From Pelagibacteraceae bacterium (GTDB taxonomy: Bacteria; Pseudomonadota; Alphaproteobacteria; Pelagibacterales; Pelagibacteraceae): DNA of 64,000 nt. The DNA lies in the NCBI GenBank assembly GCA_018402735.1, contig JAGYIF010000003.1, positions 1 through 64,000 on the forward strand, read 5' to 3'. The stretch's first letter is position 1; the number at the start of each line of letters is the position of its first letter. The translations under genes and the position numbers were made by a program. Below are positions 29,520 through 35,067 of this stretch, one piece after another. Under the pieces are notes generated by a model. That model made no database searches. It had not been told where the DNA came from and saw only the letters and a program-made list of their open reading frames with translations.

Positions 29520-29807
29520 CTATTCAAATTTTTGTTTAATTTCTTTTCTGGAATATTCAAATTTTTTTCTATGTTTAATAGATTTTTCTCTAACTCTTTT
29601 CCTCCATAATTTAAACGACGATGGAGATAAATTTGATCGCATTACTTTAATTACTTCCGATTCTGCTTTGCCTGTTTTTTCTCTTATTTCTTCAAAGGTA
29701 ATTCTATCAGCCCAAGCAGCCCAAATAATCCAATCTATTGATTGTTCATTTTTTGGTTCCGGATTTTTTGATTTAGTTACTGGACGATCAATTTTGTTTT
29801 TAAGCAT
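29520..29807 (-). CDS. TIGR03643/DUF2805 family protein
   Basis: A 95-aa protein of unknown function. The core IDWIIWAAWADRITFEEIREKTGKAESEVIKVMR and LSPSSFKLWRKRV match the DUF2805/TIGR03643 family, which looks like a small helix-turn-helix-like fold. The tail is very basic (REKSIKHRKKFEYSRKE), suggesting nucleic-acid contact; this is inference only. It overlaps the end of the peroxiredoxin gene by 8 nt and closes the gatCAB-OMT-trhO-prx run. Confidence 0.8.
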   Translation of the reverse strand: MLKNKIDRPVTKSKNPEPKNEQSIDWIIWAAWADRITFEEIREKTGKAESEVIKVMRSNLSPSSFKLWRKRVREKSIKHRKKFEYSRKEIKQKFE

Positions 29808-30282
29808 TTAAAGATTTTAGAAAATTTATCATTGTGCCGGCATCACTCACATCAAATTTTCCATTATCATCTTTAAAAACCTTCACAATTTCTTTATTAA
29901 CTACATACATAGAGTATCTAAAGGATCTCATTCCCATTCCGGCCTCAGATCTATCAGTAAGCATATCCATTCCTTTAGTAAAATCACCGTTACCATCAGG
30001 AATAAAGTTAACTTTTGCAATATTAAAATTATTTTTCCAGACGTTTTGAACAAAGGGATCGTTCATGCTTAAGCAAAACACACCATCAACTCCATGTTTA
30101 ATAATTTCATCATATCTCTCCTCATAGGATGGTAGGTGATAGTCTGAGCATGTTGGCGTAAAAGCTCCAGGTAGAGCAAAAATGACTATTTTTTTATTTG
30201 CAAAAATATCATTCGTATTTTTTGAAACATACTTGCCATCTATTCTATAGATAAAATTTACTTCAGGAACCTTGTTCACCAT
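29800..30282 (-). CDS. Peroxiredoxin, Prx5 (AhpE/hybrid-Prx5-like) family
   Basis: Thiol peroxidase of 160 aa. The peroxidatic Cys45 sits in the Prx5 signature ALPGAFTPTCSDYHLPSYEE, and the conserved Arg region is in DRSEAGMGMRSFRYSMYV. No separate glutaredoxin domain is fused and no obvious resolving cysteine precedes the C-terminus, so it probably relies on an external thiol. Start lies 20 nt inside the end of trhO, suggesting coupled synthesis. It would reduce hydrogen or alkyl peroxides in the cytoplasm. Confidence 0.92.
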   Translation of the reverse strand: MVNKVPEVNFIYRIDGKYVSKNTNDIFANKKIVIFALPGAFTPTCSDYHLPSYEERYDEIIKHGVDGVFCLSMNDPFVQNVWKNNFNIAKVNFIPDGNGDFTKGMDMLTDRSEAGMGMRSFRYSMYVVNKEIVKVFKDDNGKFDVSDAGTMINFLKSLNA

Positions 30283-31165
30283 TATTATTCTCCCTATTTT
30301 TATTATACTCTCTCATAGCAAAACGTTTTTTTTTATCAATTGTTAGTTTGTCAAAGCAATGGTGGCAACTTACACCCTGTTCATATTTGGCAGACTTTTT
30401 ATCATTATTATTTATGGGCATTCTACATCCATAACACATACTATAAGAGCCAGGTTTTGAACCGTGTTTAACCGCAACCCTTTTATCGAAAACGAAGCAC
30501 TCACCTTTCCATAAACTATCTTCTTCTGGAATATTGTTTATATAATTTAATATTCCACCATCTAATTGATAGACATCATCTATACCTTTTTCGTTTAAGT
30601 ATTCTGAAGCCTTTTCGCAACGAATTCCTCCCGTACAAAAAATTGCTAATTTTTTATTATTTTTTGTTATTAAATTATCAAAATAACCTTTGAATTCTCT
30701 AAAATTACTTACGTTAGGATTTTTAGCACCAATAAAAGTTCCAATTTCATATTCAAATGGTTTTCGAATATCAATCAATAAAACATCATCTTTTTTAACA
30801 AAATCATTCCATTCACGTGGAGAAATGTGCTTACCTTTTCTTTCTAAAATTTTTTTATCTAAAGGAACGACTTCTTTTTTTATTTTAACCTTAGGCCTTT
30901 CAAATGGTGAAAAAATAGATTTAGATAAATTATTAGAATCAAATTGATTAAATTCAAAAACTGAAAAAATGAAATTACTAAATTCAGGAACAAAACCATT
31001 AATACCTGAAATTGTTCCATTAATACCTTCGGGTGATAAAATGATTGTTCCTTTTAATTTATTATCAATTAAAAATTTTTTAAGAATAATTTGATATTTA
31101 ATTAAATTTTTTAAAACAATAAACTTATAAAAACTTATGATCTCGAAGTTTGTTTTTTTTTGCAT
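30263..31165 (-). CDS. trhO: tRNA U34 hydroxylase TrhO (rhodanese-domain protein)
   Basis: Rhodanese-type protein of the YceA/TrhO family, which uses oxygen to convert U34 of certain tRNAs to 5-hydroxyuridine. An N-terminal domain (KGTIILSPEGINGTISG near 38) precedes the rhodanese domain with the active-site loop AIFCTGGIRCEKAS (Cys177, Cys183). The C-terminal region has paired cysteines (MCYGCRMP, SCHHCF) that look zinc-binding. 300 aa. It overlaps the O-methyltransferase gene upstream by 31 nt and the peroxiredoxin downstream by 20 nt. No later start preserves the N-terminal fold, so the overlap is real. Confidence 0.92.
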   Translation of the reverse strand: MQKKTNFEIISFYKFIVLKNLIKYQIILKKFLIDNKLKGTIILSPEGINGTISGINGFVPEFSNFIFSVFEFNQFDSNNLSKSIFSPFERPKVKIKKEVVPLDKKILERKGKHISPREWNDFVKKDDVLLIDIRKPFEYEIGTFIGAKNPNVSNFREFKGYFDNLITKNNKKLAIFCTGGIRCEKASEYLNEKGIDDVYQLDGGILNYINNIPEEDSLWKGECFVFDKRVAVKHGSKPGSYSMCYGCRMPINNNDKKSAKYEQGVSCHHCFDKLTIDKKKRFAMREYNKNRENNNGEQGS

Positions 31166-31806
31166 AAAGTCATTCCATCGCCTATGGAAATCATTGTTGT
31201 TGTAATTCTTTTATCATTTTTTATATAGTTATTAAACTCTCTTATCGCTTTTGTTTTGCTATCGTTAATAGATTGATCAAAAACCTTTCCCTTCCAGAGA
31301 ACATTATCAAAAACTATCAGGCCATTGTCTGCCAACAAGTTCAAACAAGTCTCAAAGTAATACTTATAACTAGATTTGTCTGCATCGATAAAAATAAAAT
31401 CAAAGATTTTTTGTTCGTTTATCAAATTTTGTAAAACAATTTTCGCATCTCCATTTATTAAAGAAATTTTATTCGCATAAGGAGTACTTTTCCAAAAGTT
31501 AGCTGCTATAGAAGTTGTTTTAATATCTTTATCTACTGAGGTAACATGACCGCTATCGCCGACGGCAATTGCCATAGCTAATGTGCTATAGCCCATAAAG
31601 GTACCAAGCTCTAAAATATTTTTATAGTTTCCTATTTTAATTAAAAAACTTAAAAAAGAAGATTGCTCAGGAGTAACTTGCATATTTGCAATATTTCCAA
31701 AAGTTTTATATGACAATTCTCTTAAATCTTTTTGCTCTTTTGTTTCGGAATTATTTTTAAATAAATATTCAATTAATGAAATATTTTCGTTAATATTTTT
31801 AAACAC
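31135..31806 (-). CDS. Class I SAM-dependent O-methyltransferase (Methyltransf_3; candidate TrmR-like)
   Basis: 223 aa with the SAM-binding motif ILELGTFMGYSTLAMA near 64-79 and metal-site acids typical of cation-dependent O-methyltransferases: D141 and D143 in FIDADKSSY and D167-N168 in VFDNVLWKG. It ends MISIGDGMTLCKKK. The same fold and size include catechol/caffeoyl-CoA methyltransferases and the tRNA 5-hydroxyuridine methyltransferase TrmR (YrrM) of Bacillus. The 31-nt overlap with trhO, whose product is 5-hydroxyuridine in tRNA, makes a TrmR-like role attractive, but this is inference. The gene starts 3 nt after gatB. Confidence 0.85.
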   Translation of the reverse strand: MFKNINENISLIEYLFKNNSETKEQKDLRELSYKTFGNIANMQVTPEQSSFLSFLIKIGNYKNILELGTFMGYSTLAMAIAVGDSGHVTSVDKDIKTTSIAANFWKSTPYANKISLINGDAKIVLQNLINEQKIFDFIFIDADKSSYKYYFETCLNLLADNGLIVFDNVLWKGKVFDQSINDSKTKAIREFNNYIKNDKRITTTMISIGDGMTLCKKKQTSRS

Positions 31807-31809
31807 TGC

Positions 31810-33288
31810 CTATTTTAACTTCTTTGAGAGAATGTTGTTTATTAACTGAGGATTTCCTTTGCCAGCAGTATCTTTCATCGCTTGGCCAACAAAGAAACTA
31901 AATAATTTAATTTTTCCGGATTTGTATTCAATAACTTTATCTTGATTATTTTTAATAATATTATCTATTATTATTTCTAGTTCTTTTGGATCTGATTGTT
32001 GTTTAAGACCACTTTTTTCAATAATAACTTCTGGATTCTCGTTTCTTTGAACCATTTGTTCAAAAACTGTTTTTGCTATTTTCCCAGAAATAGTACCATT
32101 TTTGATTAAGTTAATTAGTTTTGAAAGATTGACGGCTGATACTGGTGAGTCTTTAATCTCTTTTCCTTCCTTATTTAGAATTCCAAATAACTCTACTATC
32201 ATCCAGTTAGCTGCCAATTTGTAATCAGAATTTTTAGCAACATCTTCATAATAATCCGAAATATCTTTTTCAGAGATTATTATACTAGCGTCGTAAGAAG
32301 AAAGACCAAAATCATTCATTAATCTATGTTTTTTTTCATCTGGTAATTCCGGTAAAGTTTTTTTTATATTTTCAATAAATTCTGAGTCTAATACTAAAGG
32401 AAGCAAATCTGGATCTGGAAAATATCTATAATCATGAGCATCTTCTTTGCTTCTCATAGATCTGGTTTCGTTTTTTTTTGTATCATAAAGTCTTGTTTCT
32501 TGATTGATTGTGCCTCCATCCTCAATAATGTCTATTTGTCTTTTAGCTTCATATTCTATTGCCTGCTGCATAAATTTAATTGAGTTTACATTCTTAATTT
32601 CGCATCTTGTTCCAAGTTGTTGAGATCCCTGTTTTCTAACTGAAACATTTACATCTGCTCTCAAAGAACCCTCATCCATATTTCCATCGCAAGTATTTAA
32701 ATACCTCATAATAGATCTTAATTTTTTTACATACTGCCCTACTTCTTCTGGTGATCTTAGATCAGGCTTACCTACAATTTCCATTAAAGCTATTCCTGAT
32801 CTGTTTAAATCAACAAAAGAATTTTCTGGATCCTGATCATGCAAACTTTTACCGGCATCCTGTTCTAAGTGTAGTCTTTCTATACCAACAACTTTTGTTC
32901 CATATGGCATATCTAAAACAATTTCACCTTCTCCTACGATAGGAAATTTAAATTGAGAAATTTGATATCCTTGTGGCAAATCTGCATAAAAATAATTTTT
33001 TCTATCAAATTTTGAAAATCTATTAATTTTTGCTTTTAAGCCAAGACCTGTTTTTACAGCCTGCTCAATACAAAATTTATTTATAACCGGTAGCATTCCA
33101 GGCATGGCTGCATCCACTAAACTAACTTGAGTATTAGGGTCCGATCCAAATTTTGTTGATGATCCGGAAAATAATTTAGCTCTAGATGTTACTTGAGCGT
33201 GAACTTCTAGCCCAATTATAACCTCCCACTTTCCTGTTTTTCCATCCAAATAGTAATCAAATTTATTATCAGCCATTACATCCACCAA
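31810..33288 (-). CDS. gatB: Aspartyl/glutamyl-tRNA amidotransferase subunit B
   Basis: Kinase/transamidase subunit of GatCAB, which corrects Glu-tRNA-Gln (and Asp-tRNA-Asn) to the amide form. The signature [13 protein letters not shown] is at the start, with [13 protein letters not shown] and [19 protein letters not shown] further on, and a YqeY-like helical tail at the C-terminus. 492 aa. The ORF overlaps gatA by 13 nt; ATG at codon 5 (33276) is an alternative start. The presence of GatCAB implies that GlnRS or AsnRS is missing in this organism. Confidence 0.97.
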
Positions 33289-34739
33289 TCTTTAACTTGT
33301 GATTTAAAACCTATTTTTTCCTCTAGTGCATAAGCAGAATTTAAAACTGTTTGTTCATCAAAAGGTTTCCCAATAATCTGAAGACCCAATGGTAATCCTG
33401 ACTGGTCAAATCCAGCTGGGATAGAGATTGCTGGTAATCCCGCTAGATTTATAGGTACAGTGAAAACATCGTTTAAATACATTGAAATTGGATCATCTTT
33501 TTTTTCACCAATTTTAAAAGCAGACGAAGGTGCTGTGGGTGTTAAAATTGCATCTACATCTTTAAATACTAAATCAAAATCATTTTTTATCAATCTCCTA
33601 ACTTGCTGCGCTTTAAGATAATAAGCATCATAATAACCAGATGACAAAACATATGTACCGATCATAATTCTTCTTTTTACCTCGTTACCAAATCCAAGTG
33701 ACCTGGTATTTTCATACATTTCATTTAAATCTTTACCAGACGCTCTAAATCCATATCTTACTCCATCATACCTAGCTAAATTTGAAGATGCTTCTGCTGG
33801 AGCTATTATATAGTAAGTTGGTAGTGCGTATTTTGTGTGTGGAAGTGAAATGTCTTTAATAATTGCACCCGATTCTTTCATCCATGAAATACCTTTATCC
33901 CAAAGATCTTGTATTTCTTTTGGCATATCGTCTACAATATATTCCTTAGGTATGCCTATTTTTAATCCTTTAATATTTCTATTTAAATTTTTTAAAAATT
34001 CTTCTTTTTTAGTATTAGCTGAAGTAGAATCTTTTTCATCGAAACCAGAAATGGCATCAAGCATCAAAGCACAATCGGAAACATTTTTCGTCATAGGTCC
34101 TGCTTGGTCTAATGAAGAAGCAAAAGCTACAATTCCCCATCTTGAACATCTACCGTAGGTTGGTTTCAAACCAACAATACCTGTAAACGCAGCAGGTTGT
34201 CTTATTGAACCTCCGGTATCCGTTCCAACAGTTGCTACAGTTAAGTCTGCGGCAACAGCTGCTGAACATCCTCCAGAAGATCCTCCTGGAACTATGTTTT
34301 CATCATTTACTTTATATGGATTAATAACATTGCCAAATGCGCTGGTTTCATTAGACGAGCCCATTGCAAACTCATCGCAATTTAATTTTCCTAAAAGAAC
34401 AGCTCCCCTTTCCCATAATTTAGAAGTTACGGTAGATTCGTATGTAGGCACAAATCCCTTTAAAATCTTACTAGAAGCTGTTGTTTCTACATTTTTTGTA
34501 CAAAACAAATCTTTAACCGCAATAGGAGCTCCGGACAAAATACCTTCTTTAAGATTATTATCGTCAATTTTTTTTGCAAAACTAATTGCTTGCTCCAGAG
34601 TTTCGGTAACAAAAGTATTTAATTTTTTTGATTTTACAATTCTATTAACATAATCACTACAGGCATCTAATGCTGAAATCTCTTTAGATTTAATTTTGCT
34701 AACTAAATTAACAAGTGTTAATTTTGTAATTTCTCCCAT
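33276..34739 (-). CDS. gatA: Aspartyl/glutamyl-tRNA amidotransferase subunit A
   Basis: Amidase-signature subunit that releases ammonia from glutamine. The Ser-cisSer-Lys triad region is visible: [37 protein letters not shown], with the catalytic Lys in [11 protein letters not shown] near residue 70. 487 aa. The gatC-gatA-gatB order is kept, with 3 nt after gatC and an overlap with gatB, so the three subunits are made from one message. Confidence 0.97.
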
Positions 34740-34742
34740 ATG

Positions 34743-35030
34743 CTATTCAATAATTTTTGGTACAACGAAATAATTTTCGTTTTTAACGGGTGAATTTTGC
34801 AAAATATCTTTCTTTTCATTAATTTTTTTTTCAACATCATCCCTTTGATATAATTTTTGATCAACTACCGACGACAAGGGTTCGGTATTAGAGATATTCA
34901 ATTCATTTAGCTGTTCTACGAATTTCAAAATAGAATTCAGATCTTTTATCATGGAATTCTCAAATTCTTCATTTGAAGCTATCCTTGATAGTTTGGAAAT
35001 TTTCTTTACTGTTTCTTTATTAATTGTCAT
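34743..35030 (-). CDS. gatC: Aspartyl/glutamyl-tRNA amidotransferase subunit C
   Basis: Small clamp subunit that wraps around GatA and contacts GatB. From ATG at 35030 the protein is 95 aa, starting MTINKETVKKISKLSRIA, exactly where the family's N-terminal helix begins. EQLNELNISNTEPLSSV is the conserved middle. The ORF-track start at 35063 adds 11 residues unrelated to the family and leaves only 4 nt to the divergent ruvX gene, so the shorter form is preferred. First gene of the gatCAB-OMT-trhO-prx run. Confidence 0.92.
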   Translation of the reverse strand: MTINKETVKKISKLSRIASNEEFENSMIKDLNSILKFVEQLNELNISNTEPLSSVVDQKLYQRDDVEKKINEKKDILQNSPVKNENYFVVPKIIE

Positions 35031-35067
35031 TAGACTAGATGAAAAATTAGGGTAAATTAACATTTTA

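Follow-up and report, generated by a model that had tools for sequence, protein, structure and literature searches.

An O-methyltransferase gene coupled to trhO in SAR11 bacteria as a candidate for the second step toward 5-methoxyuridine at tRNA position 34

The gatCAB-OMT-trhO gene run in SAR11

The window, a stretch of 64,000 nucleotides from a SAR11 (Pelagibacteraceae) genome of 1.32 Mb in 27 contigs, carries on its minus strand a single run of genes in the order gatC, gatA, gatB, a cation-dependent O-methyltransferase gene (OMT), trhO, a redoxin-family gene and a DUF2805 gene (Table 1), with spacings of -31 to +3 nt over the whole run and of -13 to +3 nt for the three gat genes upstream of the OMT. 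The nearest relative of the window OMT comes from a 'Pelagibacteraceae bacterium' genome and is 95% identical across the protein. The original prediction had read this locus as a candidate two-step pathway to 5-methoxyuridine at tRNA position 34 (mo5U34), and its description of the layout was exact: the overlap of trhO with the OMT, the location of the pair behind gatCAB, and the metal-site residues D141-A142-D143-K144 and D167-N168 all proved to be as it had given them. The overlap is likely to couple the translation of the OMT and trhO. Tight packing alone is weak evidence here because same-strand genes are generally close in the complete genome G326 of the same genus (median same-strand gap 5 nt); only about 5% of neighbours in that genome overlap by at least 20 nt, as judged from a crude gene call. 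The overlap between the DUF2805/TIGR03643 gene and the redoxin gene recurs in several genera of SAR11.

Table 1. Genes of the minus-strand run and the overlap within it, in window coordinates
Feature	Position	Strand	Remarks
gatC, first gene of the run	34743..35063	-	ORF
gatA	33276..34739	-	ORF
gatB, regularly found directly upstream of the SAR11 OMT	31810..33288	-	ORF and family comparison
OMT, cation-dependent O-methyltransferase (PF01596, COMT/CCoAOMT fold), proposed ho5U34 tRNA O-methyltransferase	31135..31806	-	223 aa, GTG start; metal ligands D141, D167, N168
Overlap of OMT 3' end and trhO 5' end	31135..31165	-	31 nt, from ORF coordinates
trhO, oxygen-dependent tRNA uridine-34 hydroxylase (predicted product ho5U34)	30263..31165	-	300 aa, ATG start; CTGGIR motif C177-R182
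prx, redoxin/peroxiredoxin-family gene, 20-nt overlap with trhO; neighbour in some genera only	29800..30282	-	Profile match and family comparison
DUF2805/TIGR03643 gene, last of the run, 8-nt overlap with the redoxin-family gene	29520..29807	-	Profile match

The assignment of trhO withstood scrutiny. The window protein scores 255.8 bits against the NCBIfam TrhO equivalog model NF001133, whose cut-off is 170, and in an alignment to the K-12 protein the residues C200, T201, G203 and R205 of Escherichia coli TrhO correspond to C177, T178, G180 and R182, while the basic residues K112 and R114 correspond to K94 and K96. According to the mutation data of Sakai 2019, the former four are essential in E. 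coli, and the basic pair likewise comes from those data (PMC6599085). We regard it as secure that the window protein is a true member of the TrhO family, predicted to form 5-hydroxyuridine at position 34 (ho5U34) in an O2-dependent manner.

We then compared this neighbourhood across 60 Pelagibacteraceae genomes, judging gene order from coordinates. The OMT is present in 51 and TrhO in 46-48 of them, and in 46 of the 47 genomes with both genes assembled the OMT comes first and trhO second in the same orientation, the two either sharing bases or almost touching. The pair is conserved family-wide, its adjacency spanning about 13 genera and OMT identities down to about 40%; in the single exception, G299, trhO lies close by, inverted and separated by another gene. 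Upstream, gatB accompanies the OMT nearly everywhere in SAR11, and downstream the link of trhO to prx is confined to some genera. The joint absence of OMT and trhO from nine genomes might be taken for co-loss; as gatB, an essential gene, is likewise missing in eight of the nine, the region is simply absent from those assemblies and we do not count it.

The original prediction had named the presence of cmoA and cmoB as an argument against its pathway. Neither gene was found in the source genome, and CmoB was found in none of 289 alphaproteobacteria, which leaves no other known enzyme to use ho5U. As regards decoding, we took the tRNA gene set from G326, the complete genome of the same genus; the Ala and Ile tRNAs linked to the rRNA genes probably lie within its 5000 masked bases. 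Its only proline tRNA is tRNA-Pro(UGG), and for Val, Thr, Ser, Leu(CUN) and Gly it has GNN and UNN tRNAs with no CNN tRNA. Such a set is a setting in which an xo5U-type modification is useful, without implying that the modification is present.

Placement of the methyltransferase within the COMT family

The OMT is a full match to PF01596 (219 bits) and the sole PF01596 protein of the source genome. Its best solved relatives, at 139-156 bits, are the Legionella protein 3r3h, SynOMT (3cbg), 5lhm, 8gxo and LiOMT (2hnk), with CCoAOMT also in that range, as against 76 bits to Bacillus subtilis TrmR (5zw3); the TrmR and alfalfa CCoAOMT queries were residue for residue those of the PDB chains 5zw3 and 1sui. 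The metal ligands D141, D167 and N168 align with the same residues of TrmR, these ligands being common to all the aligned OMTs. In a maximum-likelihood tree under a mixture model all SAR11 OMTs form one clade (100/99) within the part of the tree that holds SynOMT, LiOMT and CCoAOMT, and the TrmR clade (100/97) is free of them. A quick tree had seemed to allow the SAR11 OMTs to group with TrmR; the careful tree sets the two apart, although forcing them together, at a cost of 14 log units, is not formally rejected (p-AU 0.116). Hence, the label 'TrmR-like', if understood as membership, is not supported: judged by sequence, the OMT appears not to be a TrmR orthologue but to belong to another branch of the COMT family. 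Protein charge gave no clue to RNA binding: the OMT does not stand out as basic within the source proteome, SAR11 proteins as a whole are basic, and TrmR is itself an acidic protein.

This position in the tree speaks for the foremost alternative, namely that the OMT is a small-molecule methyltransferase of the catechol type, like SynOMT, LiOMT or CCoAOMT, which shares no more than an operon with trhO and leaves ho5U34 unmethylated. Its closest relatives (SynOMT, LiOMT, 3r3h and the plant CCoAOMT 1sui), which have the same metal and catalytic residues, belong to a type studied on small aromatics; further, SAR11 genomes are so densely packed that neighbours need not be related, and most alphaproteobacterial OMTs of this family occur in genomes without TrhO. 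The original prediction had held that a clear grouping with small-molecule methyltransferases would tell against it. The nearby characterised relatives are indeed such enzymes, but the same branch holds many enzymes of unknown substrate, and the natural substrates of the solved relatives have mostly been assigned from in-vitro promiscuity. Moreover, a small-molecule role sits poorly with the nearly invariant coupling to trhO in a family of streamlined genomes, with the placement of the SAR11 OMT outside a large clade of OMTs from genomes mostly devoid of TrhO, and with the survival of the OMT in genomes that lack trhO and have a U32-family protein (see below). We consider this alternative unlikely, while giving it more weight than any other.

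The clade structure just invoked emerged from a survey of 289 alphaproteobacteria, of which 116 have relatives of the OMT and about 100 have TrhO. There is no plain co-occurrence of the two across the class (17 shared genomes versus about 29 expected): TrhO is present in 17 of the approximately 83 genomes with a strong OMT, and TrhO genomes mostly have no such OMT. A link becomes visible solely when the OMTs are split by clade. One large clade covers about 67 genomes, and TrhO is present in 3 of them. Among the 23 genomes beyond this clade, which represent about 18 families and do not include SAR11, 20 have TrhO; the base rate is about 35%. Fisher tests of TrhO by OMT clade give p values of about 5e-14 (outside versus inside) and about 1e-7, from which relatedness is not removed, and the clustering of the TrhO label on the careful OMT tree exceeds that in all of 500 shuffles; the limits of the large clade vary slightly from tree to tree. 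In another family, the genome G032, one of those beyond the large clade, has an independent pairing, with trhO and the OMT divergent and back to back on opposite strands (L017, 600-2127). About 30 alphaproteobacteria have TrhP-like U32 proteins and neither CmoB nor a related PF01596 OMT. As most genomes with TrhO and nearly all of those with TrhP-like proteins have no such OMT, ho5U would often be made without it, and in those genomes it may be the end product or be finished by another enzyme.

Exchange of trhO for a U32-family gene

Three related genomes, G328, G315 and G297, have the gatB-OMT arrangement with trhO neither adjacent nor elsewhere; the gene directly after the OMT is of the MATE family in both G315 and G328. 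Exactly two proteins of the U32 family (PF01136), to which the oxygen-independent hydroxylase TrhP belongs, occur among the 60 SAR11 genomes, and these belong to G315 and G328. They are 413 aa long, 86% identical and furnished with the U32 cysteine motif. Their genes (L213 on G315:C2 and L214 on G328:C25; 1195-2436, minus strand) lie at differing genome positions. Contamination is an unlikely source of either gene because core-type SAR11 genes are found on the same contigs: in G315 the U32 gene and the OMT share one contig of 131 kb with core SAR11 genes around, and the U32 contig of G328 carries a long rpoD-like gene and a dnaG-like gene (the names being our own reading) that match the SAR11 genome G326. 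G297 is a 71%-complete MAG with an OMT nearly identical to that of G328, and it is plausible that a U32 gene was overlooked there for that reason. On the OMT tree the exchange of trhO for the U32 gene amounts to a single evolutionary event.

The best NCBIfam match of the U32 protein is TrhP, at 178-185 bits where 534 are needed, and no curated cut-off is passed. It is 27-31% identical to each of E. coli TrhP (YegQ), UbiU and RlhA, resembling them in its U32 domain, in the cysteine motif and in having a C-terminal extension, and in a tree it forms its own long branch beside all three; B. subtilis YrrO was compared as an approximate sequence and is a lead only. Neither the cut-offs nor the tree assign the protein to TrhP, UbiU or RlhA. 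The reading as UbiU is further made less likely by the length of the protein (413 aa versus about 330 aa) and by the absence of a UbiV partner, there being a single U32 gene per genome. We posit that the protein is possibly an oxygen-independent hydroxylase of an unnamed subfamily; that it produces ho5U is a guess, given its isolated branch and its scores below every curated threshold.

Among the 60 SAR11 genomes, G328 alone has a full-length narG (1333 bits), which would fit the loss of an O2-dependent step. This gene (L225 / L294, G328:C29) lies on a 10-kb contig of higher GC (37.5%) without any core SAR11 gene, and we treat it as merely supportive on that account. Nitrate-reducing SAR11 are known from oxygen minimum zones (Tsementzi 2016, as cited in PMC12816887).

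That the OMT persists in genomes with a U32 protein in place of trhO is most simply read as a need of the OMT for a maker of ho5U, of either kind, and we consider this exchange the strongest evidence for a pairing of functions. It also bears on the possibility that the OMT targets some other RNA position or another hydroxylated base instead of ho5U34. An adjoining RNA hydroxylase would be compatible with other RNA substrates, but no other hydroxylated base is known in these genomes, and as U32 proteins are restricted to two trhO-less genomes of the 60, the remaining genomes have no RlhA (23S ho5C); we deem such a target very improbable.

A candidate route to mo5U34

We propose that the OMT is most likely the ho5U34 O-methyltransferase acting after TrhO, the pair making mo5U34, a reading to which we assign a probability of roughly 0.65. 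TrhO would hydroxylate U34 in an O2-dependent reaction to give ho5U34, and the co-translated, divalent-metal-dependent OMT would use SAM to methylate the 5-hydroxyl, giving mo5U34, which would widen codon reading by the lone UNN tRNA of each family box. In low-oxygen SAR11 that have lost TrhO, a U32 hydroxylase of the TrhP kind would probably make ho5U, and the same OMT would complete the modification. On this reading, SAR11 tRNA would carry ho5U and mo5U. What lifts this proposal above a plain guess from operon structure is the family-wide pairing, together with the exchange of trhO for U32 with the OMT kept. It is also favoured because the OMT is the sole protein of its Pfam family in a streamlined genome, and because the OMTs outside the large clade come from TrhO genomes in most cases. 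The chemistry is feasible for the COMT fold since TrmR acts on tRNA, as Sakai 2019 describes (PMC6599085), and Mycobacterium Rv0187 acts on free ho5U (PMC6543040). The latter does not methylate ho5U-tRNA, a behaviour that counsels caution in inferring the substrate of the OMT; Mycobacterium has a TrmR homologue and no known hydroxylase (PMC10531406). The proposal is weakened because the OMT is nearer to catechol, flavonoid and caffeoyl enzymes than to TrmR, and because a class-wide link of OMT and TrhO is absent overall and the exchange occurred only once.

Sakai 2019 describes how in B. subtilis TrhO (YbfQ) or TrhP1-TrhP2 (YrrN, YrrO) forms ho5U34, which TrmR (YrrM) converts to mo5U34 (PMC6599085). 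The route proposed for SAR11 is alike in that TrhO or U32 proteins would make ho5U34, a metal- and SAM-dependent COMT-fold enzyme would follow, and CmoA/CmoB have no part. It differs in that trmR shares an operon with the U32 genes in Bacillus whereas the OMT is coupled to trhO in SAR11, in that Bacillus has both types of hydroxylase whereas each SAR11 genome has only one, and in the branch of PF01596 from which the methyltransferase is drawn. The original prediction had considered TrhO with a TrmR-like enzyme a new combination in an alphaproteobacterium. As an idea this pairing is not new: the discovery of trhO in Sakai 2019 relied in part on genomes that have trmR and lack trhP, Ehrlichia canis included, and the same work reported trhO-trmR fusions in the oomycete Phytophthora and the diatom Phaeodactylum (PMC6599085). 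In these organisms the combination is the same as that proposed for SAR11 and was put forward from gene content only; the main-text passages concerned make no mention of SAR11, of an overlapping operon or of a U32 swap. Within the library searched, Pelagibacter and methoxyuridine are not named together in any paper. In sum, the two-step pathway first envisaged keeps the identity of TrhO, the absence of CmoA/CmoB and the conserved pair, and gains from the OMT being kept with U32, but its TrmR membership is not supported and its claim to novelty had been anticipated.

A role as protein methyltransferase, like that of the Anaplasma phagocytophilum OMT reported to methylate glutamates of Msp4 (PMC4636158), can draw on the shared Pfam family and on matches to the Anaplasma structures at 1e-23, but it is scarcely credible, as it leaves the coupling to trhO without a reason, the Anaplasma OMT (Aphag_4oa5) lies on a branch separate from SAR11 where its nearest relatives (L182, L183 and L186) are likewise OMTs of TrhO-bearing genomes, and the related Ehrlichia is counted as trmR-bearing by Sakai 2019 (PMC6599085).

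A more far-reaching and more tentative proposal, which we put at somewhat below even odds, is that SAR11 attain mo5U34 through a non-TrmR OMT, ho5U methylation having arisen more than once in the COMT fold, and that low-oxygen members have substituted an unnamed O2-independent U32 hydroxylase for TrhO while keeping the OMT.

SAR11 are among the most abundant bacterial groups on Earth. If our reading is true, a near-universal SAR11 gene would be assigned a function, the formation of mo5U in tRNA by TrhO or U32 together with the OMT, and annotation by similarity to TrmR would be seen to overlook real ho5U methyltransferases. The findings also suggest a fresh look at the OMTs of other alphaproteobacteria that have TrhO, among them enzymes currently labelled as catechol or protein methyltransferases; given the company it keeps in the tree, a tRNA role is worth considering for the Anaplasma OMT. 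Finally, SAR11 would clearly exemplify the replacement of an O2-dependent RNA hydroxylase in low-oxygen lineages, and thus of a tRNA-modification pathway that exchanges its oxygen-requiring step to follow the oxygen of the ocean.
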